From contig ONGG01000010.1 of assembly GCA_900317305.1 (NCBI GenBank), positions 62,001 through 126,000 on the forward strand: a stretch of 64,000 bases of DNA, in the 5' to 3' direction. The stretch comes from an uncultured Prevotellaceae bacterium (GTDB taxonomy: Bacteria; Bacteroidota; Bacteroidia; Bacteroidales; Bacteroidaceae). Each line of letters begins with the position of its first letter. Within the stretch, counting starts at the first letter, position 1. This document shows, piece by piece, positions 1 through 45,009 of the stretch. The translations under genes were made by a program, and so were the position numbers. The notes under the pieces are model-generated. The model ran no database searches. It worked only from the letters and a program-made list of their open reading frames with translations, and had not been told where the DNA came from.

Positions 1-2231
1 TTCTCCATCTCATTGAGTTCATGATAATGGGTGGCAAAAAGGGTGCGGGCACGGGCCTTGACGTGCTCGTGCAGGTATTCCACAATAGCCCAGGCAATGG
101 AAATGCCGTCGTAGGTGGAGGTGCCACGGCCCAATTCATCGAAGAGCACCAATGAGCGGGGCGATACATTGTTGAGGATATTGGCGGCCTCAGTCATCTC
201 GACCATAAAGGTGGACTCACCCAATGAGATATTGTCGGAGGCTCCCACACGGGTGAATATTTTGTCCACCAGACCGATTCTTGCGGCTTCTGCGGGCACG
301 AAACATCCTATCTGGGCCATGAGTACGATAAGGGCGGTCTGGCGCAACAGCGCCGATTTACCAGCCATATTCGGACCCGTGATGATAATAATCTGCTGTC
401 GCTCGTTGTCGAGCATGATATCGTTGGGCACATAGCGCTCGCCTAGCGGCAGTTGGGTCTCGATCACGGGGTGGCGTCCTTGCTTGATGTCGATGACCTC
501 GGAATTGTCGACTACTGGCCGCACATAGTGGTTCTCTTCCGACACGGTAGCAAAAGAGAGTAGGCAGTCGAGACGGGCAATGAGGTTGGCATTGATCTGG
601 ATGGCGGGGATGAACTCCTGGATGGCCATCACGAGGTCGTTGAAAAGTTGGGCTTCCAAAACCTGTATCTTATCCTCAGCACCAAGGATTTTCTCCTCAT
701 ATTCTTTCAGTTCCTGGGTGATATAGCGCTCGGCTTGTGCCAATGTCTGCTTGCGCACCCACTCGGCAGGCACCTTGTCCTTATAGGTGTTGCGCACCTC
801 AAGATAATAGCCAAACACATTATTATATCCTATCTTCAGCGATGAGATACCTGTGGCTTCGGTCTCACGCTGCTGTATCTTGAGCAGATAGTCCTTGCCA
901 TTATAGGCGATGGCACGCAGTTCATCGAGCTGTTCGTTCACCCCGTCGTTGATGATGTCGCCCTTGTTCACCAGGAATGGTGGATCAGGCTTGATCTCAC
1001 GCTGGATGCGGTCGCGGATGGTGCGGCATACATTGATTTGCTCGCCGATGGCACGCAGCACAGGATGGTCGGCACTCATACAGGCCGTCTTGATGGGCTC
1101 GATGGCCTGAAGGGCTATCTTCAACTGCACAATCTCACGGGGCGACACCCTGCCCACTGCCACTTTCGAGATGATGCGCTCCAGGTCGTTGATGAGGTGC
1201 AACTGTTCGTCTGCCTGCTGACGGAATTCGGGATGACGGAAGAAATACTCCACCACATCGAGACGCTCATTGATGGGTTTGGCATCCTTCAATGGGAAGA
1301 TAAGCCAACGATGCAACATACGGCCACCCATCGCCGTGATGGTCTTGTCGATGACCTGGAGCAGTGACGAACCGCCCTCCTGCATGGTGCTGACCAGTTC
1401 GAGCGAACGGATGGTGAATTTGTCGAGACGCACATACTTGTCTTCCTCAATCCGCGAGATAGAGGTGATATGTCCAATCTGGGTGTGCTGAGTGAGTTCG
1501 AGATACTGCAGGATAGCTCCAGCGGCCACCACGCCATTCTGCAAGTGGTCGACACCAAATCCTTTCAACGACTTGGTCTGGAAATGGCGCAACAGTTTCT
1601 CACGGGCTGTCATGGAGGTGAACACCCAATCGTCGAGTTCGAACACACAGTGTTTTGTACCGAAATAGCGCTCAAAATCGGCTTTTCGGGCACGGTCGTA
1701 GAGCACCTCCTTGGGCTGGAAATTACCAATGAGTTTTTCCACATAGTCGTAGGTTCCCTCACCAGTAAGAAACTCACCCGTGGAAATATCGAGAAAAGCC
1801 ACGCCACAAGAGCCTTTTCCAAAATGTACGGCAGCCAGAAAGTTGTTCTCTTTGTAGTTGAGCACATTGTCGCTCATGGCCACACCAGGGGTTACCAGTT
1901 CGGTAATGCCGCGTTTCACCAAGGTTTTGGTAAGTTTGGGGTCTTCCAACTGGTCGCAAATGGCCACCCTGCGTCCGGCACGAATCAGTTTGGGCAGGTA
2001 AGTGTCGAGCGCATGGTGTGGAAATCCGGCCATTTCGGCCGAACCCGACGTACCGCCATTGTTACGGCGGGTAAGGGTAATACCCAGAATCTTGGATGCG
2101 GCCACCGCATCCTCGCAATAGGTCTCATAGAAGTCACCACAACGAAAGAGCATCAGCGCGTCGGGATGTTTCGCCTTCAGCGTGAAAAACTGCTTCATCA
2201 TAGGGGTAAGTCCTTTTTCCTTAGCTGCCAT
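1..2231 (-). CDS. mutS: DNA mismatch repair protein MutS (3' end outside window)
   Basis: MutS recognises mismatches and small loops and starts methyl-independent or MutL-dependent mismatch repair. The protein begins [16 protein letters not shown] at 2231, and the mismatch-reading F-x-E is at residues 34-36 (GDFYE). About 743 residues are visible, covering mismatch-binding, connector, lever and most of the ATPase domain. A Walker A region (GPNMAGKS, near residue 620) and a Walker B/signature region ([10 protein letters not shown]) lie before the window edge, where the frame is still open at ATHYHELNE. MutS proteins are usually about 870 residues, so roughly the last 130 are missing only because of the edge. 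A good promoter lies 25-55 bases upstream. It is the left neighbour of the candidate replication origin and is transcribed away from it. Confidence 0.97.
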
Positions 2232-2391: not shown

Positions 2392-2766
2392 TGTGGAAAA
2401 CTTGTGGATAACTGATGGAAAAAATAATAATCAATCACCATTTTTCCACACCATCCAAGAATCACAAAAAATGGGTGGAAAAAATACAATATATTCCACC
2501 ACTTAAGCAACAGTTTTGCACACTGCACTCCCCCACCCTACTTTTCCACATCATTTTATCCACCACATTCAATAACTGTGGAAAACTATATAATTCATTT
2601 ACAAACAATGATTTAATATCAACAAACCAATGGTATAAATGTAAATAAATCCATAAAACCTCATAATAAGAACATATCAATATAGTTTTCCACATTTTCC
2701 ACACCCCATCATTATTCATCATTTTCTTTATTTTTTTAAAAAAGAAAAGAAATATAATAATAATTT
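2392..2766. other. oriC: Candidate chromosomal replication origin (oriC): DnaA-box cluster and AT-rich element
   Basis: This non-coding stretch holds DnaA-box-like 9-mers. A perfect TGTGGATAA is at 2403-2411 and TTATCCACC is at 2556-2564. TTTTCCACA is at 2442-2450, 2542-2550, 2686-2694 and 2695-2703 (the last two directly abutting). The inverse, TGTGGAAAA, is at 2392-2400 and 2577-2585. GGTGGAAAA at 2474-2482 is a weaker match. From 2704 to 2766 follows an almost pure A/T tract that could be the unwinding element. The E. coli DnaA consensus is TTATCCACA; that TTTTCCACA is also bound here is inference. mnmG (gidA), often near oriC in bacteria, lies 4 kb away, and three parS-like sites lie 6-10.5 kb away. 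dnaA itself is not in the window. Confidence 0.7.
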
Positions 2767-2972: not shown

Positions 2973-3731
2973 TTAGTCGGCCAGTTTGGCCTTGATGAAC
3001 TCGCGGTTGAGTCGTGCGATATTGGCGATGGTCTCGCTCTTCGGACAAACAGCCTCGCAGGCGCGGGTGTTGGTGCAGTTGCCGAAGCCCAACTCTTCCA
3101 TCTTTGCCATCATCGCCTTGGCGCGTTTGGCGGCCTCTGGACGTCCCTGCGGGAGGAGAGCCAGCTGACTTACCTTCGAGCTCACGAAGAGCATGGCAGA
3201 GCCGTTCTTGCAGGCTGCAACGCATGCACCACAACCGATGCACGAAGCGCAGTCCATGGCCTCGTCGGCGTCTTGTTTCGGAATGAGGATGGCATTGGCA
3301 TCCTGTGCCTGACCCGTACGCACGCTGGTATAGCCACCAGCCTGGATGATCTTGTCGAAGGCGCCACGGTCTACCATACAGTCTTTGATAACGGGGAAGC
3401 CAGCCGAACGCCAGGGCTCTACGGTGATGACATCACCGTCGTTGAAGCGGCGCATGTAGAGCTGGCAGGTGGTGGCCCCACGCTCGGTCTTGCCGTGTGG
3501 TGTACCGTTGATATAGAGCGAGCACATGCCACAGATACCCTCGCGGCAGTCGTGGTCGAACACGAATGGCTCACGGCCTTCGTTGATCAGTTCCTCGTTG
3601 AGGATGTCGAGCATCTCCAGGAAAGAGGTGTCGTCGGGAATGTCTTTCATCTCGTGGGTGTCGAAATATCCTTTCTCACGAGGTCCGTTCTGACGCCAGA
3701 ACTTGATAGTGAATGATATATTTTTAGCCAT
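2973..3731 (-). CDS. sdhB: Succinate dehydrogenase/fumarate reductase iron-sulfur subunit
   Basis: This is the electron-transfer subunit that links the flavoprotein to the membrane cytochrome b. Of its 252 residues, Cys62, 67, 70 and 89 form the plant-type [2Fe-2S] site ([10 protein letters not shown]). Cys161-164-167-170-174 ([14 protein letters not shown]) and Cys219-225-229 supply the [4Fe-4S] and [3Fe-4S] sites. It is the last gene of a C-A-B operon, five bases after the sdhA stop. In anaerobic Bacteroidales this complex works mainly as a fumarate reductase that ends the succinate pathway. That direction is inferred from lineage; sequence alone does not separate Sdh from Frd. A strong terminator follows. 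Confidence 0.95.
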
Positions 3732-3736
3732 GATTG

Positions 3737-5719
3737 TTAGTTCTTATAATTACGTGTTTGTACCTTGATTGCCTCATACTCTAACGGCTCCTTGATGAGC
3801 TCAGGTGCCTTGTCGTCGGAGCCCTGGTATTCCCAGCAGCCCACATAGAAGTAGTTCTCATCGTCGCGCTTGGCCTCGCCTTCCTCTGTCTGGTATTCCT
3901 CACGGAAGTGACCACCGCAGCTCTCGTTGCGTGAGAGGGCATCGTAGGCTACCAACTGACCCATGGTGATGAAGTCGCGGAGGTGGATGGCCTTGTCGAG
4001 CTCGATGTTAAGTCCTTCTTTCGTTCCAGGAATGAAGAGGTTGGTGTCGAATTCCTTGCGCAGTTTCTTGATGAGTTCGATACCTTCTTTCAGACCTTCG
4101 GCGGTGCGGCCCATACCCACGTGCTCCCACATGATGTGGCCCAGCTCCTTGTGGATGGAGTCGACACTGCGCTTGCCCTTGATGTTCATCAGACGGTCGA
4201 TCTCGGCTTCAACGGCCTTCTCGGCAGCCTCAAACTCAGGCAGGTCGGTAGAGATGCGCGGCCATATTTCCTGGTCGGCCAGATAGTTCTGGATGGTGTA
4301 AGGCAACACGAAATAGCCGTCGGCCAGACCCTGCATGAGGGCGGAGGCACCAAGACGGTTGGCACCATGGTCGGAGAAGTTGCACTCGCCAATGGCGAAG
4401 AGTCCCTTGATGGAGGTCTGCAACTCATAGTCTACCCAGATACCACCCATGGTGTAGTGGATGGCGGGATAGATCATCATGGGATGATAGTAGGTCACGC
4501 CATTGATCTCGCAGGCTTTCTTGCCAGGGAACACGTCGGTGATCTCCTCATACATCTCGAAGAGGTTGCCGTAGCGTTGCATGATGACATCAATACCCAG
4601 GCGGTTGATCGACTCGGAGAAGTCGAGGAACACGGCCAGACCGGTGTTGTTCACGCCGAAGCCTTTGTCGCAGCGCTCCTTGGCGGCACGTGAGGCCACA
4701 TCGCGTGGAACAAGGTTACCGAAGGCGGGATAGCGGCGCTCCAGATAGTAGTCGCGGTCTTCCTCAGGAATCTCATATCCTTGTTTTGTACCAGCCTGAA
4801 GTGCTTTTGCATCCTCGAGTTTCTTGGGCACCCAGATACGTCCGTCGTTACGCAGCGACTCCGACATCAGGGTGAGTTTCGACTGCTTGTCGCCATGAAC
4901 AGGAATACAGGTGGGGTGAATCTGCACATAGGATGGGTTGGCAAAATAAGCTCCCTTGCGGTAGCACTGAACGGCAGCTGTACAGTTGCAGCCCATAGCG
5001 TTGGTAGAGAGGAAGTAGGTATTGCCATAACCACCAGTGGCGATAACCACGGCATTGGCGGAGAAGCGCTCCAGTTTGCCAGTGACCAAGTTCTTGGCAA
5101 TGATACCACGGGCACGGCCGTTGACAATCACCACATCTTCCATCTCATAGCGAGTGTAGAGCTTCACCTTGCCGGCCTGCACCTGAGCGCTGAGCGACGA
5201 GTAGGCACCGAGCAGAAGCTGCTGGCCTGTCTGTCCCTTGGCATAGAATGTACGCGACACCTGCGCGCCACCGAAAGAGCGGTTGGCCAACATGCCACCA
5301 TACTCACGGGCGAAAGGCACACCCTGTGCCACACACTGGTCGATGATATTGTTCGATACCTCGGCCAGACGGTAGACATTGGCCTCACGGGCACGATAGT
5401 CGCCACCCTTCACGGTGTCATAGAAAAGACGGTATACAGAGTCACCATCATTCTGATAGCATTTGGCGGCGTTGATACCACCTTGTGCGGCGATGGAGTG
5501 TGCGCGGCGTGGGGAGTCCTGGATACAGAAGTTGATGACATTGAAGCCCATCTCTCCAAGACTGGCGGCGGCACTGGCACCAGCCAGACCGGTACCTACG
5601 ACGATGATGTCGAGTTTCAGTTTATTCTTCGGGTTCACCAAGCGCTGGTGGGCCTTGTAGTTGGTCCATTTCTCTGCTACTGGTCCTTCGGGAATTCTTG
5701 AATCTATTTTCTTAGTCAT
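3737..5719 (-). CDS. sdhA: Succinate dehydrogenase/fumarate reductase flavoprotein subunit
   Basis: This 660-residue subunit holds covalent FAD and interconverts fumarate and succinate. The N-terminal [17 protein letters not shown] is the dinucleotide-binding fold, and [15 protein letters not shown] carries the conserved region around the flavin-linked histidine. [11 protein letters not shown] and [11 protein letters not shown] belong to the substrate and capping domains. I chose the start [12 protein letters not shown] at 5719. A longer frame to 5797 exists but would run 86 bases into sdhC. With this start the gene overlaps sdhC by 8 bases (ATGACTAA), a typical translational-coupling arrangement. 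The length fits the B. fragilis/Wolinella type. Confidence 0.96.
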
Positions 5720-6398
5720 GATAGCAGAGACTTGGTGCACACTTGAAAGCGAAGGCAAGCACCACGATGAGGAAGCAAGCCATAAGGATGGTGACATAGA
5801 CGAGGCCTATAGTCTTCCAGCGCTTGAACCATATTTTACCACTGATACCAAGGGTTTGCATGGCGCTCCAGAAACCATGGGAAAGATGGAACCAGATGGC
5901 CACGAGCCAGATGATATAGAGCACTACGAAGACAGGATTGGAGAAGGTCTCTACTATCCATCCAAAGCCGTCAGTAGGACTGAGCTTGGTCTCCATACCC
6001 ACGAGTTCGGCGAACATCATGTTGTACCAGAAGTTGAAGAGATGCAGCAGGAGGCCGAGGAGAATGATGATACCGAGAACAAGCATGTTCTGCGATGCCC
6101 ACTCCACTTTACTGGGAGTGTCGGTGACAGCATAGCGCTCATTTCCACGGGCGCGGCGGTTTTGCGCTGTGAGAATGAAAGCGTAGACAATGTGAATGAC
6201 TGCCAGGGCAGCCAGACCCAAAGTGGCGACTACCGCATACCAGTTGGAACCCAACAACTCGCAAATCCAGTTGTAGGCTTCGCCTGAGAATAGTGCCGCG
6301 ACGTTCATACAGCAGTGGAACGTCAGGAAGAGGATAAGTGCAATACCGGTGACCGACATTACGACCTTCCTACCAATAGAAGAATTGATTAACCACAT
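5712..6398 (-). CDS. sdhC: Succinate dehydrogenase/fumarate reductase cytochrome b subunit
   Basis: This 228-residue membrane subunit anchors SdhAB and carries haem and the menaquinone site. Five hydrophobic segments are visible, beginning at [19 protein letters not shown] and ending at [17 protein letters not shown]. Histidines inside them ([41 protein letters not shown]) are the likely axial ligands of two haems, as in the Wolinella-type di-haem cytochrome b. One subunit replaces the SdhC/SdhD pair of E. coli. It is first in the operon, with a promoter and a leader of about 120 bases upstream. Confidence 0.93.
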
Positions 6399-8565: not shown

Positions 8566-8581
8566 TGTTTCACGTGAAACA
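8566..8581. promoter_or_regulatory. parS: parS site, perfect (ParB-binding centromere)
   Basis: The 16 bases TGTTTCACGTGAAACA are a perfect palindrome and equal the bacterial ParB-binding consensus TGTTNCACGTGAAACA. The site lies in the 60-base gap between mnmG and apt. Two near-identical sites follow at 9242-9257 and 13065-13080. Confidence 0.85.
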
Positions 8582-9241: not shown

Positions 9242-9257
9242 GGTTTCACGTGAAACA
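9242..9257. promoter_or_regulatory. parS: parS-like site (15/16) at the 5' end of uvrC
   Basis: GGTTTCACGTGAAACA differs from the parS consensus only in the first base. The palindromic core GTTTCACGTGAAAC is intact. It ends 14 bases before the chosen uvrC ATG. Confidence 0.75.
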
Positions 9258-13003: not shown

Positions 13004-13987
13004 CTAAATATTTCTATTGGCCACAAAGTCAAGATAGGCCTGCAATGCTTCTTTTACCTCAATTTGTTTCACGTGAAAAATGATATATCGCTGTGCTTGG
13101 GCACTGAAATCGTCCATTTTTTTCACCGCATAGTCAATACCTCCGTTTTGGATGGCGAATTGCACCAACTGTTGGATTTCAGCGTCGGTCACGAAGCCTT
13201 TCTTCACCTTTTTGGCTAAATTGAGCATCTCCTCATTGCCTGTGCTCTTAAGGGCATAGATGATGGGAAGTGTCAGTTTCCCCTCAGCCATATCGTTGCC
13301 AGTGGGTTTGCCTATCTCCTTGGAGTCGTAATAGTCGAAAATATCGTCACGAATCTGGAAAATCATGCCTATCGCCATACCAAAATCGTAGGCTTCACTC
13401 ACCTCCTCGGCGGTGGCATTCACCGACAAAGCACCATTCATTGCGCAACGGGCAAACAGCGAGGCTGTCTTCTGACTGATAATCTTGTAGTATATCTCTT
13501 CCGAGATACCATCCTCAGCGAAATTGTTCAGTTGCAGCAACTCGCCTTTCGAGAGCGTCTGTCCCAGTTCGGCAAGGCTGGTCACAATACTGGTGTTGTT
13601 ACTTTTCGAAACATAAAGCAAGGCCGAAGAGAGAATATAGTCGCCTACAAGCACTGCCACTTTGTTGTTGAACATTGCATTGACCGATGCCTGACCACGG
13701 CGCTTGTCACTCTCGTCCACCACGTCGTCGTGCACCAGACTGGCGGTATGAAGCAGTTCCAGTCCCAATGCGGCATGTTGCGTGGTGAGATTCACCTCGC
13801 CAAGATTTTTGGTAATCAGTAGCGTAAGGATAGGACGCATGCGCTTACCGCCACGCTGCCTGATGTGCTGCAGGGCGTCGGCTAGGAGTCCATCAGTGTG
13901 TGAGAGTGACTCATCAAACAGATTGATGAATTCTTTGAGTTCTGCCTCAATGGGCTTTCTTATAATAGAGAGATAATCCATTGCCAT
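13004..13987 (-). CDS. Trans-polyprenyl diphosphate synthase (octaprenyl/heptaprenyl type)
   Basis: This enzyme condenses isopentenyl diphosphate units onto an allylic primer to make the long chain used for menaquinone. Its 327 residues have both aspartate-rich motifs: DDVVDESDKRRG (first DDxxD-type) and IRDDIFDYYDS (second DDxxD). GGKRMRPILTLL and KTASLF also fit the E-type synthase family. The small residues before the first motif suggest a long product, but the chain length cannot be fixed from sequence. A parS-like palindrome lies inside its last 80 bases, encoding FHVKQI. It is divergent from polA. Confidence 0.9.
   Translation of the reverse strand: MAMDYLSIIRKPIEAELKEFINLFDESLSHTDGLLADALQHIRQRGGKRMRPILTLLITKNLGEVNLTTQHAALGLELLHTASLVHDDVVDESDKRRGQASVNAMFNNKVAVLVGDYILSSALLYVSKSNNTSIVTSLAELGQTLSKGELLQLNNFAEDGISEEIYYKIISQKTASLFARCAMNGALSVNATAEEVSEAYDFGMAIGMIFQIRDDIFDYYDSKEIGKPTGNDMAEGKLTLPIIYALKSTGNEEMLNLAKKVKKGFVTDAEIQQLVQFAIQNGGIDYAVKKMDDFSAQAQRYIIFHVKQIEVKEALQAYLDFVANRNI
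13065..13080. promoter_or_regulatory. parS: parS-like site (15/16) inside the polyprenyl synthetase gene
   Basis: TGTTTCACGTGAAAAA differs from parS only at position 15. It lies within coding sequence, so the codons are constrained by both functions if it is used. Confidence 0.65.
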
Positions 13988-37471: not shown

Positions 37472-37515
37472 CTCATTTTCTGCGATTGAATGGGTGTAAT
37501 TTGTGGAAAAAATAC

Positions 37516-38344: not shown

Positions 38345-40063
38345 TCAGGCTTCCTTCTGGCGCATGCCCATGCGGGCCTCCACCACGTTCACCACGTAGT
38401 CGCCCAGTTTCTCACACTCTGAGATGATGTCCATATAGATGGTTCCCACACCATAGGAGTATTCGTGGTTGTTGATGTCGTTGATGTTCTGCGACTTCAA
38501 CTGGTTGCGATAGTTGTTGATTTCGTTCTCGATGTTGAACGAACGGTTCACGTTGAACGATTCCTTTCGTCCGCTCATCAGCGAGTTCATCTGCTCCAGG
38601 GCATTGTTGGTGAGTTCCATCATCTGGTGCAGTTGCTCATACTGCTTCTCGGTGAAATGGTCTTGTTTGCTTTGCACCTTGCGGTTGATGGTGCGTGCCA
38701 TGTTGTAGCATGAGTCGCCGATGCTCTCAAGTTCGGAAATCTCGCGCAGCATGGCACGTATCTTGTGCTTGGTATCGTCGCTCAGGTGAGCGTCCGACAC
38801 CTGGTCGAGATACCTGGCTATCTCTATCTCCATATTATCGGAGATATCCTCGTATTTCTCGATGCGTGCGAAGAGTTTGCCGAATTTCTGCATGTCTTTC
38901 TCGGTGAGCAACTCGCGCACCATGCCAAACATACGTTGCATTCGTTCTGCAAACGAGCGTATCTCCTTCTGTGCCTCGAGCACCGAGAGTTCAGGGGTCT
39001 TCATGATGCCCGAGGTGATGAAATGCAGACGGAAGTCTTCCTCCTCACCGGCCTCCTTGCCCTTGATCATCCAGCACACGAAGCGCTCAATATAGGGGGT
39101 GAACCAAATCTGGAGCAAGGTGTTGGTGATGTTGAAGAGGGAGTGGAAGGCAGCGAGAACGATGCTGGTCTTGACGAGGTTGGCGGCATAGCCTGGGGCA
39201 TCGCTGCTGATGGTGCGGTCGAAACCGATGATGGAGCAGACAAAACTGATAAAAGGCTGCAAGAGGATGAGCGCCCAGGTCACACCGATGACATTGATGA
39301 TGAAGTGGGCAAAGGCGGCACGGCGCGCCGAGGTGTTGGCGGTAAAGGCCACGATGTTGGCGGTGATGGTGGTGCCGATGTTCTCGCCGAGCACGAGCAT
39401 GATGCCTTGGTCGATATGGAGCACGCCAGTGGAGCAGAGGGTCATCGTGATGGCCATGATGGCTGCCGACGACTGCACGCAAAGGGTGAGCACGGTGCCT
39501 ATGAGCAGGAAGAAAAGGGTGTTCCCAAAACTGGACTCGTTGAATTGCTGGAAGAACCGGCTGATGGTGGCACCCGTCACGGGGTCCTCAACCAGTGAGA
39601 AACTGGTCTCCTTCAGGGTGATCAAACCAAGAAACAGGAATGCGACTCCGAAGAGGAAGTCGCCCATGATGCGCCTGCTCTTCATATAGATGAGAATGAT
39701 GCCGATGAAGAATCCGGGATAGATGAGATAGGTGACATTGAACACGTCGGAAAGCGACATGATCCATGCCGTGACGGTGGTGCCGATATGTGCGCCCATA
39801 ATCACCGAAATGGCTTGCAACAGTGTGAGCAGTCCGGCATTCACAAACGATACGGTCATCAGCGTGGTGGCGGTAGACGACTGTACGGCGGCGGTGACAA
39901 ACATACCCGTCATCACACCCGTGAAACGGTTGGTGGTCATCGCACCGAGCACATGGCGCAATTGTGGACCGGCCATCTTCTGCAGGCTCTCGCTCATGGA
40001 TTTCATACCAAACATGAGAAGAGCCAGCGCACCGAGCAACTTAAATATGATCCAAATCGACAT
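38345..40063 (-). CDS. Na+/phosphate cotransporter family protein with PhoU-like tail
   Basis: The 572-residue membrane protein has two Na/Pi cotransporter repeats, each with a QSS motif: TAAVQSSTATTLMT (near residue 60) and LCVQSSAAIMAITMTL (near 200). The C-terminal 200 residues (about 345-560) are a helical PhoU-like domain (ISELESIGDSCYNMARTI). This is the NptA/YjbB-type layout; YjbB exports phosphate in E. coli. Import versus export is undetermined here. No pst or pho genes are near. Confidence 0.92.
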   Translation of the reverse strand: MSIWIIFKLLGALALLMFGMKSMSESLQKMAGPQLRHVLGAMTTNRFTGVMTGMFVTAAVQSSTATTLMTVSFVNAGLLTLLQAISVIMGAHIGTTVTAWIMSLSDVFNVTYLIYPGFFIGIILIYMKSRRIMGDFLFGVAFLFLGLITLKETSFSLVEDPVTGATISRFFQQFNESSFGNTLFFLLIGTVLTLCVQSSAAIMAITMTLCSTGVLHIDQGIMLVLGENIGTTITANIVAFTANTSARRAAFAHFIINVIGVTWALILLQPFISFVCSIIGFDRTISSDAPGYAANLVKTSIVLAAFHSLFNITNTLLQIWFTPYIERFVCWMIKGKEAGEEEDFRLHFITSGIMKTPELSVLEAQKEIRSFAERMQRMFGMVRELLTEKDMQKFGKLFARIEKYEDISDNMEIEIARYLDQVSDAHLSDDTKHKIRAMLREISELESIGDSCYNMARTINRKVQSKQDHFTEKQYEQLHQMMELTNNALEQMNSLMSGRKESFNVNRSFNIENEINNYRNQLKSQNINDINNHEYSYGVGTIYMDIISECEKLGDYVVNVVEARMGMRQKEA

Positions 40064-40155
40064 AAATCATTAAATTTTCCTTCAAAATATACCCTATTTC
40101 GTTTTTTCTCACTACTTTTACATGCAAATCCAAAATAACGACAAAATACGATACA

Positions 40156-41817
40156 ATGAGAGAATTACTAAAAATCCGATGCAAAAATAATAAAAAAAAC
40201 GTAGAAATCCCCATGGGTAGCACACTTTCTGAGGTTTTTACGCAATTGAAATTGGAAATGCCCTATGGGCCTGTGAGCGCTAAGGTGAACAACCAGGTCA
40301 CCGGTCTCGACTTCCGCCTCTATCACAACAAGGACGTGGAATTCCTCGACATCACTCACCCCTCTGGGCACCGGGCATACACGCGCACCCTGTTCTTCGT
40401 GCTCTGTAAAGCCGTGCACGACCTTTATCCCAAAGGGAGCGTGGTCATCGATATCCCCGTGTCGAATGGTTACTACTGCGACATGACGCTCGGCCATCCT
40501 GTGACACAGCAGGATGTGGATGCCTTGAAGCAGCGCATGCGACAAATCATCGAGGCCGACATTCCTATCAGGCGACGGGAGTGCACGGTGGATGAGGCAG
40601 CGAAGATTTTCGAGGAGCGTGGCACCAGTTCGAAGGTGAAGCTCATGCAGACCATCGGCGACCTCTATACCGTTTATTACGAACTCGACGACTATGCCGA
40701 CTACTACTATGGGGCACTGCTCCCCAGGACGGGTTGTCTCTATCTCTTCGACCTGGCCAAATATTACGATGGCATGCTGCTGCGCATCCCCCAGATAAGC
40801 AACCCCTCACAACTGGGCGAGATGATCGTGCAAGACAAGATGTTTGGCATCTTCAAAGAGCATCACCAGTGGCAGAACATCCTCGGCATCAGTACGGTGG
40901 GCGATTTCAACGTGTCGGTGTCGAAAGGCTATGCCTCGTCCATCGTCAATATCTCTGAAGCCCTGCAGGAGAAGAAAATCGCCAAGATAGCCGAGGATAT
41001 CGCACAACGCGACGATGTGCGCATCGTACTGATATCCGGCCCCTCGTCGAGCGGAAAGACAACCACCTGCAAGCGACTCTCCATACAGCTCGTGTGCAAT
41101 GGGCGTCGGCCGGTGATGATGTCGCTCGACGACTATTTTATCGACCGTGAGCAAACACCAAGGGACGCTAAGGGTGACTACGACTTCGAGAGTCTGTATG
41201 CACTCAACATCCCCTTGCTCAACAAGCAACTCAATGCGCTCCTCGCTGGCGAGGAGGTGGAACTGCCCAAGTACAATTTCCAAAAAGGAAAGAGCGAACC
41301 AAGTGGTCAGCTGCTGAAGCTCAACCCCAAAGACATCCTTGTGATAGAAGGCATCCACGCCCTCAATCCCGAACTTACCTCGCATGTTCCCGAATGCCAG
41401 AAATTCAAGGTCTATGCCTCGGCGCTCACTACCATCTTGCTCGACAACCACAACTACATCCCCACAACCGACAACCGGCTCCTGCGACGCATCATCCGCG
41501 ACGACAAATACCGGGGCGTCTCGGCTCAGGAGACCATACGCCGTTGGCCATCGGTGAGGGCGGGCGAGCAGAAATGGATCTTCCCCTATCAGGAGAATGC
41601 CGATGCCATGTTCAATACGGCCATGATCTATGAGTTGGCGGTCATCAAGCAACAGGCCCGCCAACTGCTCGAACGGGTGCCCAGAAAGGCCGAGGAGTTC
41701 TCCGAAGCCTACAGGCTCAATAAGTTCTTGAGCTATTTCGTCGACATCCCTTCCGACCAACTGCCCTATACCTCACTGCTTAGGGAGTTCCTCGGAGGCA
41801 GTTCCTTCACCTACTAA
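40156..41817 (+). CDS. Nucleoside (uridine-type) kinase with TGS and ThrRS-like N-terminus
   Basis: The 553-residue protein has a TGS-like domain (about 1-65), a region resembling the tRNA second additional/editing domain of threonyl-tRNA synthetase (about 65-260, including AVHDLYPKGSVVIDIP) and a uridine-kinase P-loop domain. In the kinase, Walker A is SGPSSSGKTTTCKRL near residue 295, and MMSLDDYFIDREQTPRD and VIEGIHALNPEL follow. The kinase part probably phosphorylates a nucleoside; the purpose of the synthetase-like half is unknown. The arrangement recurs in Bacteroidetes and some Firmicutes. It is divergent from the Na/Pi gene. Confidence 0.88.
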   Translation: MRELLKIRCKNNKKNVEIPMGSTLSEVFTQLKLEMPYGPVSAKVNNQVTGLDFRLYHNKDVEFLDITHPSGHRAYTRTLFFVLCKAVHDLYPKGSVVIDIPVSNGYYCDMTLGHPVTQQDVDALKQRMRQIIEADIPIRRRECTVDEAAKIFEERGTSSKVKLMQTIGDLYTVYYELDDYADYYYGALLPRTGCLYLFDLAKYYDGMLLRIPQISNPSQLGEMIVQDKMFGIFKEHHQWQNILGISTVGDFNVSVSKGYASSIVNISEALQEKKIAKIAEDIAQRDDVRIVLISGPSSSGKTTTCKRLSIQLVCNGRRPVMMSLDDYFIDREQTPRDAKGDYDFESLYALNIPLLNKQLNALLAGEEVELPKYNFQKGKSEPSGQLLKLNPKDILVIEGIHALNPELTSHVPECQKFKVYASALTTILLDNHNYIPTTDNRLLRRIIRDDKYRGVSAQETIRRWPSVRAGEQKWIFPYQENADAMFNTAMIYELAVIKQQARQLLERVPRKAEEFSEAYRLNKFLSYFVDIPSDQLPYTSLLREFLGGSSFTY

Positions 41818-41872
41818 CCCATCGGTACGAGTAGGAAGAAAGCATAACACAATCATCATTGTTGTATATTTA

Positions 41873-41913
41873 TACCTCGGAATAATCAAAATATTGCATA
41901 TTATTCCGAGGTA
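41873..41913. promoter_or_regulatory. 14-bp palindrome between nucleoside kinase and korA
   Basis: TACCTCGGAATAAT (41873-41886) and ATTATTCCGAGGTA (41900-41913) are perfect inverses with a 13-base loop. No T-run follows, so it is not a canonical terminator. It may end the kinase mRNA or act as a regulator site 65 bases above the korA promoter. The following 50 bases repeat ATATGCA three times. Confidence 0.5.
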
Positions 41914-41977
41914 ATGATATTTATATGCAGTTAATATGCATAATATGCAATGGTTTTTGATTTTTATTCAAAAACAT

Positions 41978-42008
41978 TTTGCCAATTCAATAGTTTTTAA
42001 GAACTTTG
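41978..42008 (+). promoter_or_regulatory. Promoter of korAB
   Basis: TTTG (41978-41981), 19 bases, GAACTTTG (42001-42008), one mismatch in the -7 element. The predicted start is about 40 bases before the chosen korA ATG. Confidence 0.6.
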
Positions 42009-42054
42009 CACTCGAATTATTTAGAGGCAACTGATTTTGTTAAAAAATATCATA

Positions 42055-43917
42055 ATGGCAGAACAATTGGAAATTAAGGAATTAGACCATGTCGTAGTTC
42101 GTTTTTCGGGCGACTCCGGCGATGGTATGCAGTTGGCTGGCAACATCTTCTCTACGGTGTCGGCCTCTGTAGGTAATGGCATCTCAACATTTCCTGATTA
42201 TCCGGCAGACATCCGTGCCCCGCAAGGCTCTCTTACCGGTGTGTCGGGATTCCAGGTGCATGTGGGCGAGGGGAAAGTCTATACCCCGGGTGATTTGTGC
42301 GATGTGCTGGTGGCTATGAACGCTGCGGCGCTCAAGACCCAGTATAGGTATGCCAAGCCACAGGCCACCATCATCATCGACACCGACAGTTTCGGTCCTA
42401 ACGACCTGAGGAAGGCGGCTTTCCAGACTGATGACTACCTGGGCGAGATGGGCATCGACCCCGACCGTGTGGTGGCTTGTCCCATCACGAAGATGGTGAA
42501 AGACTGCTTGGCCGACAGCGGTATGGACAACAAGGCGGTGCTGAAGGCGGTGCTGAAGTGCCGCAATATGTTCGCTCTCGGACTGGTGTGCTGGCTCTTC
42601 AACCGCGACCTGGGTCTGGTGGCCAATTTCCTTCGTGAGAAGTTCGCCAAGAAACCGGCTATTGCCGAGAACAACATCAAGGTGGTGCAGGCTGGTTTCG
42701 ACTATGGCCATAACGTGCATGCCTCAGTTCCCTCCACCTACCGCATAGAGTCAAAGTCGAAGGTGAAGGGCCGCTATATGGACATCACCGGCAACAAGGC
42801 TACGGCCTACGGACTGATCGCCGCCGCCGAGAAAGCCGGATTGCGCCTCTATCTGGGCAGTTATCCCATCACCCCTGCCACCGACATCCTTCACGAGTTG
42901 TCGAAGCACAAGTCGTGTGGGGTCATCACCGTGCAGTGCGAGGACGAGATCTCGGGGTGCGCCAGTGCCATCGGCGCTGCTTTCGGAGGCGCACTGGCCG
43001 CTACCTCCACCTCCGGTCCGGGCATCTGCCTGAAGTCGGAGGCTATGAACTTGGCCGTCATCGATGAACTGCCGCTCGTGGTCATCGATGTGCAGCGTGG
43101 TGGTCCTTCCACAGGTCTTCCCACGAAGAGCGAGCAGACCGACCTGTTGCAGGCACTCTATGGCCGCAATGGCGAGTCGCCCATGCCTGTGATTGCCGCC
43201 AGCAGTCCCACGGCTTGTTTCGATGCCGTGTATGCCGCTGCCAAGATTGCTCTTGAGCACCTCACTCCCGTCATCCTGCTTACCGATGCCTATGTGGCCA
43301 ATGGTTCGGCGGCTTGGAAGTTGCCTACCATCGACGAACTGCCCGACATCCATCCTCACTATGTCACCGAGGCACAGAAGGGCCATTATACGCCTTATGA
43401 GCGCGACCCGGAGAGTCTGGTGCGCTATTGGGCCATCCCCGGACAGGAGGGCTACACCCATATTCTTGGTGGTCTGGAGAAAGACGGTGCCACAGGTGCC
43501 ATCTCTACCGATCCTGAGAACCACGACCGTATGTGTCGTCTGCGTGCCGAGAAGGTGGCTCGCATCCCCGTGCCCGATGTCGAGGTGGCTGGCGATGAGG
43601 CCGATGCCGAACTGCTCATCGTGGGCTTCGGCGGCACCTATGGCCATCTCTACTCGGCCATGGACGAACTGCGCCAGAAAGGCCACAAGGTGGCCCTTGC
43701 CCATTTCGAGTATATCAACCCGCTGCCTGCCAACACCGCCGAGGTGCTCAAGCGCTATCCGCGTGTGGTGGTGGCCGAGCAGAACCTGGGACAGTTTGCC
43801 GCATACCTGCGCACCAAGGTCGATGGCTTCGTGCCCTTCCAGTTCAATCAGGTGAAAGGCCAGCCTTTCGTGGTGGCTGAGTTGGTGAAGGCTTTCGAGG
43901 ATATTATCAATCAATAA
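42055..43917 (+). CDS. korA: 2-oxoglutarate (2-oxoacid):ferredoxin oxidoreductase alpha subunit
   Basis: KorA with KorB interconverts 2-oxoglutarate and succinyl-CoA using ferredoxin. The 620 residues fuse a gamma-type domain (VVVRFSGDSGDGMQLAG to about 190) to the alpha domain (GNKATAYGLIAAAEKAGL, YPITPATDILHELSK, ATSTSGPGICLKSEA, QRGGPSTGLPTKSEQTDLLQ). I chose MAEQLEIKELDH at 42055, not the in-frame TTG at 42037. In anaerobes the enzyme often runs reductively to make 2-oxoglutarate from succinyl-CoA. No delta (ferredoxin-like) subunit is adjacent. Confidence 0.94.
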   Translation: MAEQLEIKELDHVVVRFSGDSGDGMQLAGNIFSTVSASVGNGISTFPDYPADIRAPQGSLTGVSGFQVHVGEGKVYTPGDLCDVLVAMNAAALKTQYRYAKPQATIIIDTDSFGPNDLRKAAFQTDDYLGEMGIDPDRVVACPITKMVKDCLADSGMDNKAVLKAVLKCRNMFALGLVCWLFNRDLGLVANFLREKFAKKPAIAENNIKVVQAGFDYGHNVHASVPSTYRIESKSKVKGRYMDITGNKATAYGLIAAAEKAGLRLYLGSYPITPATDILHELSKHKSCGVITVQCEDEISGCASAIGAAFGGALAATSTSGPGICLKSEAMNLAVIDELPLVVIDVQRGGPSTGLPTKSEQTDLLQALYGRNGESPMPVIAASSPTACFDAVYAAAKIALEHLTPVILLTDAYVANGSAAWKLPTIDELPDIHPHYVTEAQKGHYTPYERDPESLVRYWAIPGQEGYTHILGGLEKDGATGAISTDPENHDRMCRLRAEKVARIPVPDVEVAGDEADAELLIVGFGGTYGHLYSAMDELRQKGHKVALAHFEYINPLPANTAEVLKRYPRVVVAEQNLGQFAAYLRTKVDGFVPFQFNQVKGQPFVVAELVKAFEDIINQ

Positions 43918-43932
43918 GAGGAGGAGTAAACA

Positions 43933-44940
43933 ATGAGCGAATATACAGCACAAGATTATAAGAAAGGCCAGCCACGTTGGTGTCCTGGCTGTGGCGACCA
44001 CTTCTTCCTGGCATCGCTGCATAAGGCCATGGCCGAGGTGGGCGTGGCACCTCATCAGATGGCCGTCATCTCGGGCATCGGATGCAGCAGCCGCCTGCCC
44101 TATTATGTGAGTACCTATGCCATGCAGACCATCCATGGCCGCGCTGCTTCTATCGCCACGGGCCTGAAGGTGGCCAATCCCGACCTCACGGTGTGGCAGG
44201 TGAGCGGCGATGGCGATGGACTGGCCATCGGCGGCAACCATTACATCCATGCCATGCGCCGCAATATCGACCTCAACATGATATTGCTCAACAACCGCAT
44301 CTATGGTCTTACCAAGGGACAGTACTCACCCACCTCGCCCCGCGGTTTCGTCTCGAAGTCGAGCCCCTATGGCACCGTGGAGGACCCCTTCCGTCCGGCA
44401 GAGCTCTGTTTCGGCGCCCGTGGCAAGTTCTTTGCCCGTGCCGTGGCCACCGATGCCGCAGGAACGGTCGACGTGCTCAAGGCGGCCTATTTCCACAAGG
44501 GCGCCGCTGTGTGCGAGATTCTGCAGAACTGCGTCATCTTCAACAATGGTGCCTACGACCCTATATACAATAAGGAGGGGCGTAAGAAGAACGCCATCTA
44601 TGTGCGCCATGGCGAGAAACTGGTCTTCGGCGAGAACAATGAGTTTGGTCTCGTGCAGGAAGGGTTCGGACTGAAGGTGGTGCGTATCGGTGAGGATGGC
44701 GTCACCCTCGACGATATCCTCGTTCACGACGCCCATTGCGAGGACAACACCTTGCAACTGAAACTGGCGATGATGGACAACGAGCACGGTTTCCCCGTGG
44801 CGCTCGGTGTAATCCGTGATGTGGAGGGTCCCACCTACGACCAGGCCGTGGCCGAACAAATCGAACAGGTGTCGGCACAGAAGAAATACCACAATTTCGC
44901 AGAGTTGCTCGAGACCAACGACACCTGGGAGGTGAAATAA
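43933..44940 (+). CDS. korB: 2-oxoglutarate (2-oxoacid):ferredoxin oxidoreductase beta subunit
   Basis: This is the thiamine-diphosphate subunit. Its 335 residues show RWCPGCGDHFFLAS (cluster-binding cysteines), GIGCSSRLPYYV and the TPP motif GDGDGLAIGGNHYIHAMRRN with NNRIYGLTKGQYSPTS. All expected motifs are present. It begins 15 bases after korA, and GAGGAGG just upstream of its ATG is an unusually good Shine-Dalgarno sequence for this phylum. A strong terminator follows. Confidence 0.95.
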   Translation: MSEYTAQDYKKGQPRWCPGCGDHFFLASLHKAMAEVGVAPHQMAVISGIGCSSRLPYYVSTYAMQTIHGRAASIATGLKVANPDLTVWQVSGDGDGLAIGGNHYIHAMRRNIDLNMILLNNRIYGLTKGQYSPTSPRGFVSKSSPYGTVEDPFRPAELCFGARGKFFARAVATDAAGTVDVLKAAYFHKGAAVCEILQNCVIFNNGAYDPIYNKEGRKKNAIYVRHGEKLVFGENNEFGLVQEGFGLKVVRIGEDGVTLDDILVHDAHCEDNTLQLKLAMMDNEHGFPVALGVIRDVEGPTYDQAVAEQIEQVSAQKKYHNFAELLETNDTWEVK

Positions 44941-44962
44941 CCCTCCTTAGTGCAGAGATAGG

Positions 44963-45009
44963 AAATCCCCTCCCCACATGTTGCAAACGACATGAGGGGA
45001 GGGGATTTT
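44963..45009 (+). terminator. Terminator of korAB
   Basis: AAATCCCCTCCCCACATG (44963-44980) pairs with 44991-45008 except for one mismatch, giving a long GC-rich stem with a 10-base loop, then TTTTC. The 353-base gap to the next gene otherwise holds only a promoter and no recognised RNA. Confidence 0.85.

Follow-up and report, generated by a model that had tools for sequence, protein, structure and literature searches.

The window, i.e., the whole stretch of 64,000 nucleotides analysed here, corresponds to positions 62001-126000 of contig C40 in its own genome (G000), a draft of 3.68 Mb in 66 contigs, with an assembly completeness of 93%. Near its left end, a gap of 741 bases, as described in an earlier note on this DNA, separates the start of mutS (2231) from the stop of sdhB (2973), the latter encoding the iron-sulfur subunit of a succinate dehydrogenase/fumarate reductase. 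The gap revealed a GC content of 0.32 (68% A+T). Genes for sdhB, sdhA, and a cytochrome subunit occupy 2973-6398 on the minus strand, followed by mnmG and apt. The features considered below are the following:

3-2231, minus strand: mutS, running off the window (NF003810, 3.3e-287)
2307-2371: interspersed repeat, degenerate copy between mutS and the putative origin
2392-2411, minus strand: left DnaA-box pair, TGTGGAAAA at 2392-2400 and TGTGGATAA at 2403-2411 (exact matches)
2442-2450, plus strand: DnaA box TTTTCCACA (exact match)
2474-2482, minus strand: DnaA-box variant TTTTCCACC (exact match)
2514-2522, plus strand: weak box TTTTGCACA, one mismatch
2542-2564, plus strand: DnaA box TTTTCCACA at 2542-2550 and variant TTATCCACC at 2556-2564
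2577-2585, minus strand: DnaA box TTTTCCACA (exact match)
2686-2703, plus strand: tandem DnaA boxes TTTTCCACATTTTCCACA, head-to-tail, adjoining the A/T tract
2704-2766: predicted DNA unwinding element, CCCCATCATTATTCATCATTTTC followed by a T-run/A-run, 84% A+T
2712-2726, plus strand: DnaA-trio-like run of five steps, NTN as read here and NAN on the complement (weak alone, P 0.09)
2769-2889: interspersed palindromic repeat, copy between the putative origin and sdhB
2973-3731, minus strand: sdhB (NF005746, 5.7e-122)
8566-8581: parS-like site TGTTTCACGTGAAACA, exact palindrome
9242-9257: parS-like site, one mismatch
13065-13080: parS-like site, one mismatch

DnaA boxes and A/T tract between mutS and sdhB

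Exact matching on either strand of the gap revealed six copies of TTTTCCACA (starts 2392, 2442, 2542, 2577, 2686, and 2695) and single copies of TTATCCACA (2403), TTATCCACC (2556), and TTTTCCACC (2474), and nine boxes of the form TTWTCCAC lie between 2392 and 2703. The six, one, and one copies of TTTTCCACA, TTATCCACA, and TTATCCACC counted in 2392-2703 are those of the earlier note, and the A/T tract that it placed behind the boxes is real, covering 63 bases. Its remark that only isolated copies occur elsewhere holds for the one at 37502, while a copy at 1735 within mutS (the window carries eight TTTTCCACA in its 64 kb) and the TTTTCCACC at 2474 had gone unmentioned. Genome-wide, 57 exact TTTTCCACA were counted, six of them within these 312 bases, compared to 32 for the reversed-word control. 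Pairs in the same orientation (TTWTCCACM-N0-30-TTWTCCACM) occur three times genome-wide, each time within the cluster, and the reversed pattern gave none. Among distinct 60-mers of the window ranked by nearest-neighbour energy, only that at 6397 is less stable than that at 2711. Two features by which an oriC is judged, namely an intergenic cluster of DnaA boxes and an adjoining A+T-rich, easily melted stretch, are thus present at 2392-2703 and 2704-2766, respectively.

Copies of a palindromic, interspersed repeat with a length of roughly 120 bases and a DNA hairpin z of -7.7 flank the putative origin on both sides, and at least 84 match rows were obtained for this repeat in the genome (40 of 158 candidates scored, with both strands and the query itself counted). 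A repeat of 188 bp, PINSR, is described for P. intermedia in an excerpt of PMC4755523.

GC skew, dnaA, and parS-like sites in the draft genome

The cumulative GC skew, proposed in the earlier note as a check of its oriC claim, was followed along 200 of the 213 kb of contig C40 and reached its minimum (-2300) in bin 60001-65000, rising afterwards. On this contig the cluster is located at 64392-64703, inside the very same bin. The minimum is flat, with -2215 already in bin 40001-45000, and a second, shallower dip appears near 155 kb. Since a draft in 66 contigs precludes a skew for the whole chromosome, relatives were sampled by spaced 20-kb stretches instead.

The gene dnaA, correctly described as not adjacent, lies on another contig (C41), and the 3.5 kb around it revealed two one-mismatch boxes. 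Adjoining dnaA/dnaN genes are common at an oriC but not required, and the cluster lacks such an adjoining dnaA. Distances from dnaA to the origin amount to 0.84 Mb in the relative G014 and 0.59 Mb in G035. This separation is not new and has already been published for Bacteroidetes: an excerpt of Naito et al. 2015 (PMC4755523) states that oriC is commonly far from dnaA in this group and gives a predicted oriC for chromosome 1 of Prevotella intermedia OMA14, which resembles that of the window in its multiple DnaA boxes at a GC-skew transition and its distant dnaA. One cyanobacterial oriC is also far from both dnaA and dnaN according to an excerpt on DoriC 10 (PMC6323995).

Allowing at most one mismatch, the parS-like word TGTTTCACGTGAAACA was detected three times in the genome, all within C40:70566-75080 (starts 70566, 71242, and 75065), with no hit for the control. 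Sites of the parS type sit near origins, and all three putative sites are 6-11 kb away from the cluster, as would be expected of an oriC. In the five relatives assembled in one to three contigs (G014, G025, G035, G009, and G007), the numbers of such sites were 1, 3, 1, 1, and 1, and where the origin is known (four of the five), they lie 31-67 kb away from it; as the reversed-word control also hit one place each in G014 and G035, the single sites there are weak evidence. Both parS-like sites of G012 are on the contig of its origin, and of those in G028, two adjoin mnmG/apt on C33 and another is located on C86.

Homologous clusters in relatives and their link to nadA

A single dense box cluster was found in eight of the 12 same-genus relatives first read (G014, G024, G032, G007, G035, G029, G008, and G034), the last two and G007, G035, and G029 having been preselected by a DNA match to the cluster (5/8). 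Measured within the stretch read, its distance from the skew minimum is less than 3 kb in G024, G029, G008, and G034 and 7-13 kb in G014, G035, G032, and G007, with the minimum of G007 located at the edge of the stretch. Clusters are also present in the later-added G012, G028, G025, and G027 (in the latter at C45:7468, with the skew minimum at the stretch edge). No cluster occurred in the stretches first read of G009, G001, G023, and G025; for G023 and G025, a cluster subsequently turned up upstream of nadA, and for G009 and G001 none was located. The exact-pair pattern gave no hit in G006, G015, G001, and G009, in none of which the origin was located, nor did it in G028, although a cluster is present there, i.e., the pattern misses the G028 cluster.

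In the spaced 20-kb samples, the skew turned near 1.74 Mb in G035, at 1.43-1.54 Mb in G014, and at 2.68-2.83 Mb in G025, and box clusters are located at 1740.5 kb, 1509.6 kb, and about 2763.6 kb (upstream of nadA), respectively; each of these genomes also had single samples of the wrong sign elsewhere. Three exact DnaA boxes within 110 bases were additionally observed in G025 away from its skew turn (C1:23946-24055). This triple was rejected as an origin since the sampled skew does not turn there, and it could be a titration site or the origin of a mobile element.

Nine origins could be aligned. The alignment runs from a box pair on the left (TGTGGATAA/TGTGGAAAA or close variants, similar to the pair at 2392-2411) through a middle block to the right end, where two neighbouring boxes or words resembling them precede ATCAT (ATAAT in G034) and a T-run/A-run. 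The 18 bases of 2686-2703 are identical in G035, there too beside an A/T tract, and the right end of the window origin (2684-2764) matched G035 with 81% over 81 bases in the DNA search. This search, performed with the cluster, yielded matches in 13 of 60 genomes, own genome counted, at E <=0.001, and matches other than self mainly cover the A/T tract. Hits in G044, G048, G058, G022, and G030 resemble chance matches of A/T-rich sequence, whereas G035, G029, G007, G008, and G034 had hits that led to box clusters, and the match in G003 lies beside its nadA. A tandem-box search of a wider contig collection resulted in at least 120 stretches, with many Firmicutes titles among the matches listed, and is uninformative for the lineage. 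The conservation in relatives that an oriC should display was thus found, with a gene context that varies.

Regarding this context, a SdhB/FrdB protein was detected in 55 of the 60 genomes searched, own included. The earlier note had proposed conservation of the cluster between mutS and sdhB as a check, and this was not borne out: at the 29 SdhB/FrdB loci of relatives returned (flanks up to 1.5 kb), neither mutS nor the cluster was present, so that mutS-sdhB was rejected as a general arrangement, and among the mutS upstream regions of 15 relatives, two or more exact boxes were identified only in G028 and G012. Longer stretches of relatives harbored much of the same gene set within tens of kilobases, in reshuffled order. 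G028, the closest relative by SdhB, carries 14 boxes, five of them exact, within the 530 bases ahead of mutS, and its A/T tract is on the mutS side. The order in G012 is nadA, A/T tract, boxes, an alanine-dehydrogenase-like gene (named by reading its translation alone), and mutS. The window has its boxes towards mutS and its A/T tract towards sdhB, and we therefore interpret the sdhB side as a junction formed by rearrangement.

The suggestion that the DnaA of this organism may favour TTTTCCACA is not indicated, because relatives use A or T at box position 3, so that TTTTCCACA does not look lineage-specific. In 30 nadA upstream regions (28 same-genus, two others), we counted 38 TTATCCACA and 27 TTTTCCACA, and all five exact boxes in the cluster of G028 are TTATCCACA, with TTTTCCACA absent as an exact match. 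An excerpt of PMC6323995 names TTTTCCACA as the dominant box in oriC of cyanobacteria, which are a different phylum, unlike the relatives considered here with their A or T.

The gene nadA (quinolinate synthase), identified by sequence and, in the named relatives, by annotation, starts directly after the A/T tract in G029, G032, G024, G035, and G014 and is the usual neighbour of the origin in the genus. A search for nadA gave matches in 28 same-genus genomes, for each of which one locus was read (for G024 an extra copy on C26, not the C13 copy). Up to 600 bases upstream were scored with 1 per exact box and 0.35 per one-mismatch box, and 21 of the 28 loci scored at least 2, a value reached by none of 200 shuffles each and by none of 50 segments adjoining sdhB/frdB. 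Upstream of nadA, 20 of the 28 loci contain the middle-block core, once as a variant form. In the order-wide set, where five of 30 loci are cut by contig ends with unreliable upstream positions and three further matches came without a locus, six of the 30 (G052, G037, G054, G056, G059, and G051) had scores reached by 0 or 1 of 200 shuffles. The genome of the window, at 93% completeness, gave no nadA match. The same was observed for G001, G006, G009, G015, G027, G028, and G034 of the genus. As a separate observation, G024 harbors two extra nadA copies (C26:4678-5667 and C30:15864-16850) with 89% to G029, compared to 76% for its C13 copy, and these are possibly a contamination of that assembly.

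The middle block AAAAAGATATAAACTTATTAATTTTGCA is conserved in seven origins of relatives (L078, L159, L165, L073, L151, L070, and L082), while in the nine-origin alignment it is absent from the window origin and degenerate in G034. It ends in TAATTTTG, which resembles the -7 promoter motif of Bacteroidetes, and the block may still be a plain nadA promoter; against this counts G007, which keeps the block in its origin although nadA is 0.9 Mb away. A wider picture, which we put forward with considerable doubt, would be that oriC of Bacteroidales carries a mid-origin element A(n)GATATAAACTTATTAATTTTGCA read by an undescribed factor within an ancestral oriC-nadA arrangement, and that the genome of the window has lost both the element and nadA, with denser strong boxes compensating and the flanking repeats letting the origin flanks exchange. 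A report of an oriC-nadA link was not found in the literature, subscription papers and the DoriC tables lying outside the scope of this search.

Among named genomes, the densest box window in 350 kb of Prevotella sp. oral taxon 299 F0039 (NC_022111) is 1146801-1147200, which falls within the 10-kb bin of the skew minimum and holds eight boxes, all of them one-mismatch forms. The nearest SdhB/FrdB in the plasmid collection (87%) belongs to Prevotella sp. oral taxon 299 as well. NC_022111 is filed as a plasmid, with a size of 1.77 Mb, a chromosome-type origin candidate, parS-like sites, and sdhB/frdB; OY725993, NZ_OY725801, and NZ_OY725921 are likewise filed as plasmids and carry nadA, two of them annotated with leuS. 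Within the stretch read, the skew is lowest at the gap upstream of nadA in Phocaeicola massiliensis and Parabacteroides distasonis, and the minimum in the 41 kb covered of Bacteroides finegoldii lies away from nadA. The densest box window coincides with the nadA gap in P. distasonis, is tied first there in B. finegoldii, and lies elsewhere in P. massiliensis. Like the window, P. distasonis (NZ_OY725801), P. massiliensis (OY725993), and the same-genus nadA origins display TATCAT or ATCAT at the right end, followed by a T-run/A-run. Boxes of P. distasonis and P. massiliensis are few and mostly of one-mismatch form, unlike those of the window, and nadA-linked origins lie upstream of nadA, whereas that of the window lies between mutS and sdhB instead.

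Interpretation as a probable replication origin

The skew minimum on contig C40, the uniqueness of the cluster, the clusters of relatives near a skew turn, and the nearby parS-like sites all support the oriC reading of the earlier note, and as judged from sequence, 2392-2766 is very probably the chromosomal replication origin. As such it is an ordinary feature, with neighbouring genes that differ from those of most relatives. DnaA, encoded elsewhere in the genome, would bind the nine boxes, and DnaA on the tandem pair at 2686-2703 would extend onto the adjoining ATCAT/T-rich strand, opening the A/T tract. The helicase would then be loaded at 2704-2766, giving rise to two forks leaving in opposite directions, and segregation of the duplicated origins would be the task of ParB bound to the putative parS sites at a distance of 6-11 kb. 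We infer each of these steps, i.e., DnaA binding, unwinding, initiation, and ParB binding.

Excerpts of PMC6669920 and PMC8287927 describe adjoining boxes plus NAN steps as a minimal unwinding module, the basal unwinding system of Bacillus subtilis. Since the window matches the general search pattern given there (tandem boxes and at least three NAN steps within 16 bases), we propose that DnaA may be loaded from 2686-2703 into 2704-2766. None of the five steps of the window (3'-AAT AAG TAG TAA AAG-5') equals the trio consensus 3'-GAT-5'. The NAN pattern is loose, as shuffles of the same 24 bases have an average run of 3.1 versus the five seen. With shuffling of the first 24 bases only, the P of 0.09 was obtained for the window, and the sum over ten origins, which are related and hence not independent, was reached in 0 of 5000. 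GAT steps were detected once each in G007, G029, G032, and G014 among these ten, and not in the window.

Sites of the datA/DARS type carry boxes too, and one end of the gap is the upstream region of mutS, so that the cluster might be a DnaA-titrating or -reactivating site or a DnaA-regulated mutS promoter and not an origin. We regard this as very unlikely: no second such cluster was found in the genome, an unwinding-type A/T tract lies beside the tandem boxes, the cluster holds the skew minimum of its contig, and its homologues adjoin different genes in different relatives, which argues that the boxes do not follow mutS. Still less credible is the origin of an integrated plasmid or conjugative element, for which the repeat copies on both sides and a gene order unlike that of relatives would speak, but which fits poorly with the housekeeping genes on both sides (mutS, sdhB/sdhA, mnmG, and apt, common to relatives), with homologous clusters in many relatives, and with the lack of a Rep-type family match among the eight neighbouring proteins scanned. 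A chance run of box-like words, conceivable in a gap of 68% A+T, can be dismissed, as nine TTWTCCAC boxes stand against a mean of 0.089 and a maximum of 3 in 2000 dinucleotide shuffles of the gap.

With the chromosomal origin at 2392-2766 as the preferred reading, an origin is placed in a draft genome where a search at dnaA would be natural. This is relevant when growth rates of Prevotella-like bacteria are estimated from metagenomes (peak-to-trough). Comparing relatives also yields A(n)GATATAAACTTATTAATTTTGCA as a candidate conserved origin element, and the gap upstream of nadA offers a practical origin marker in the genus, perhaps also more widely in Bacteroidales.
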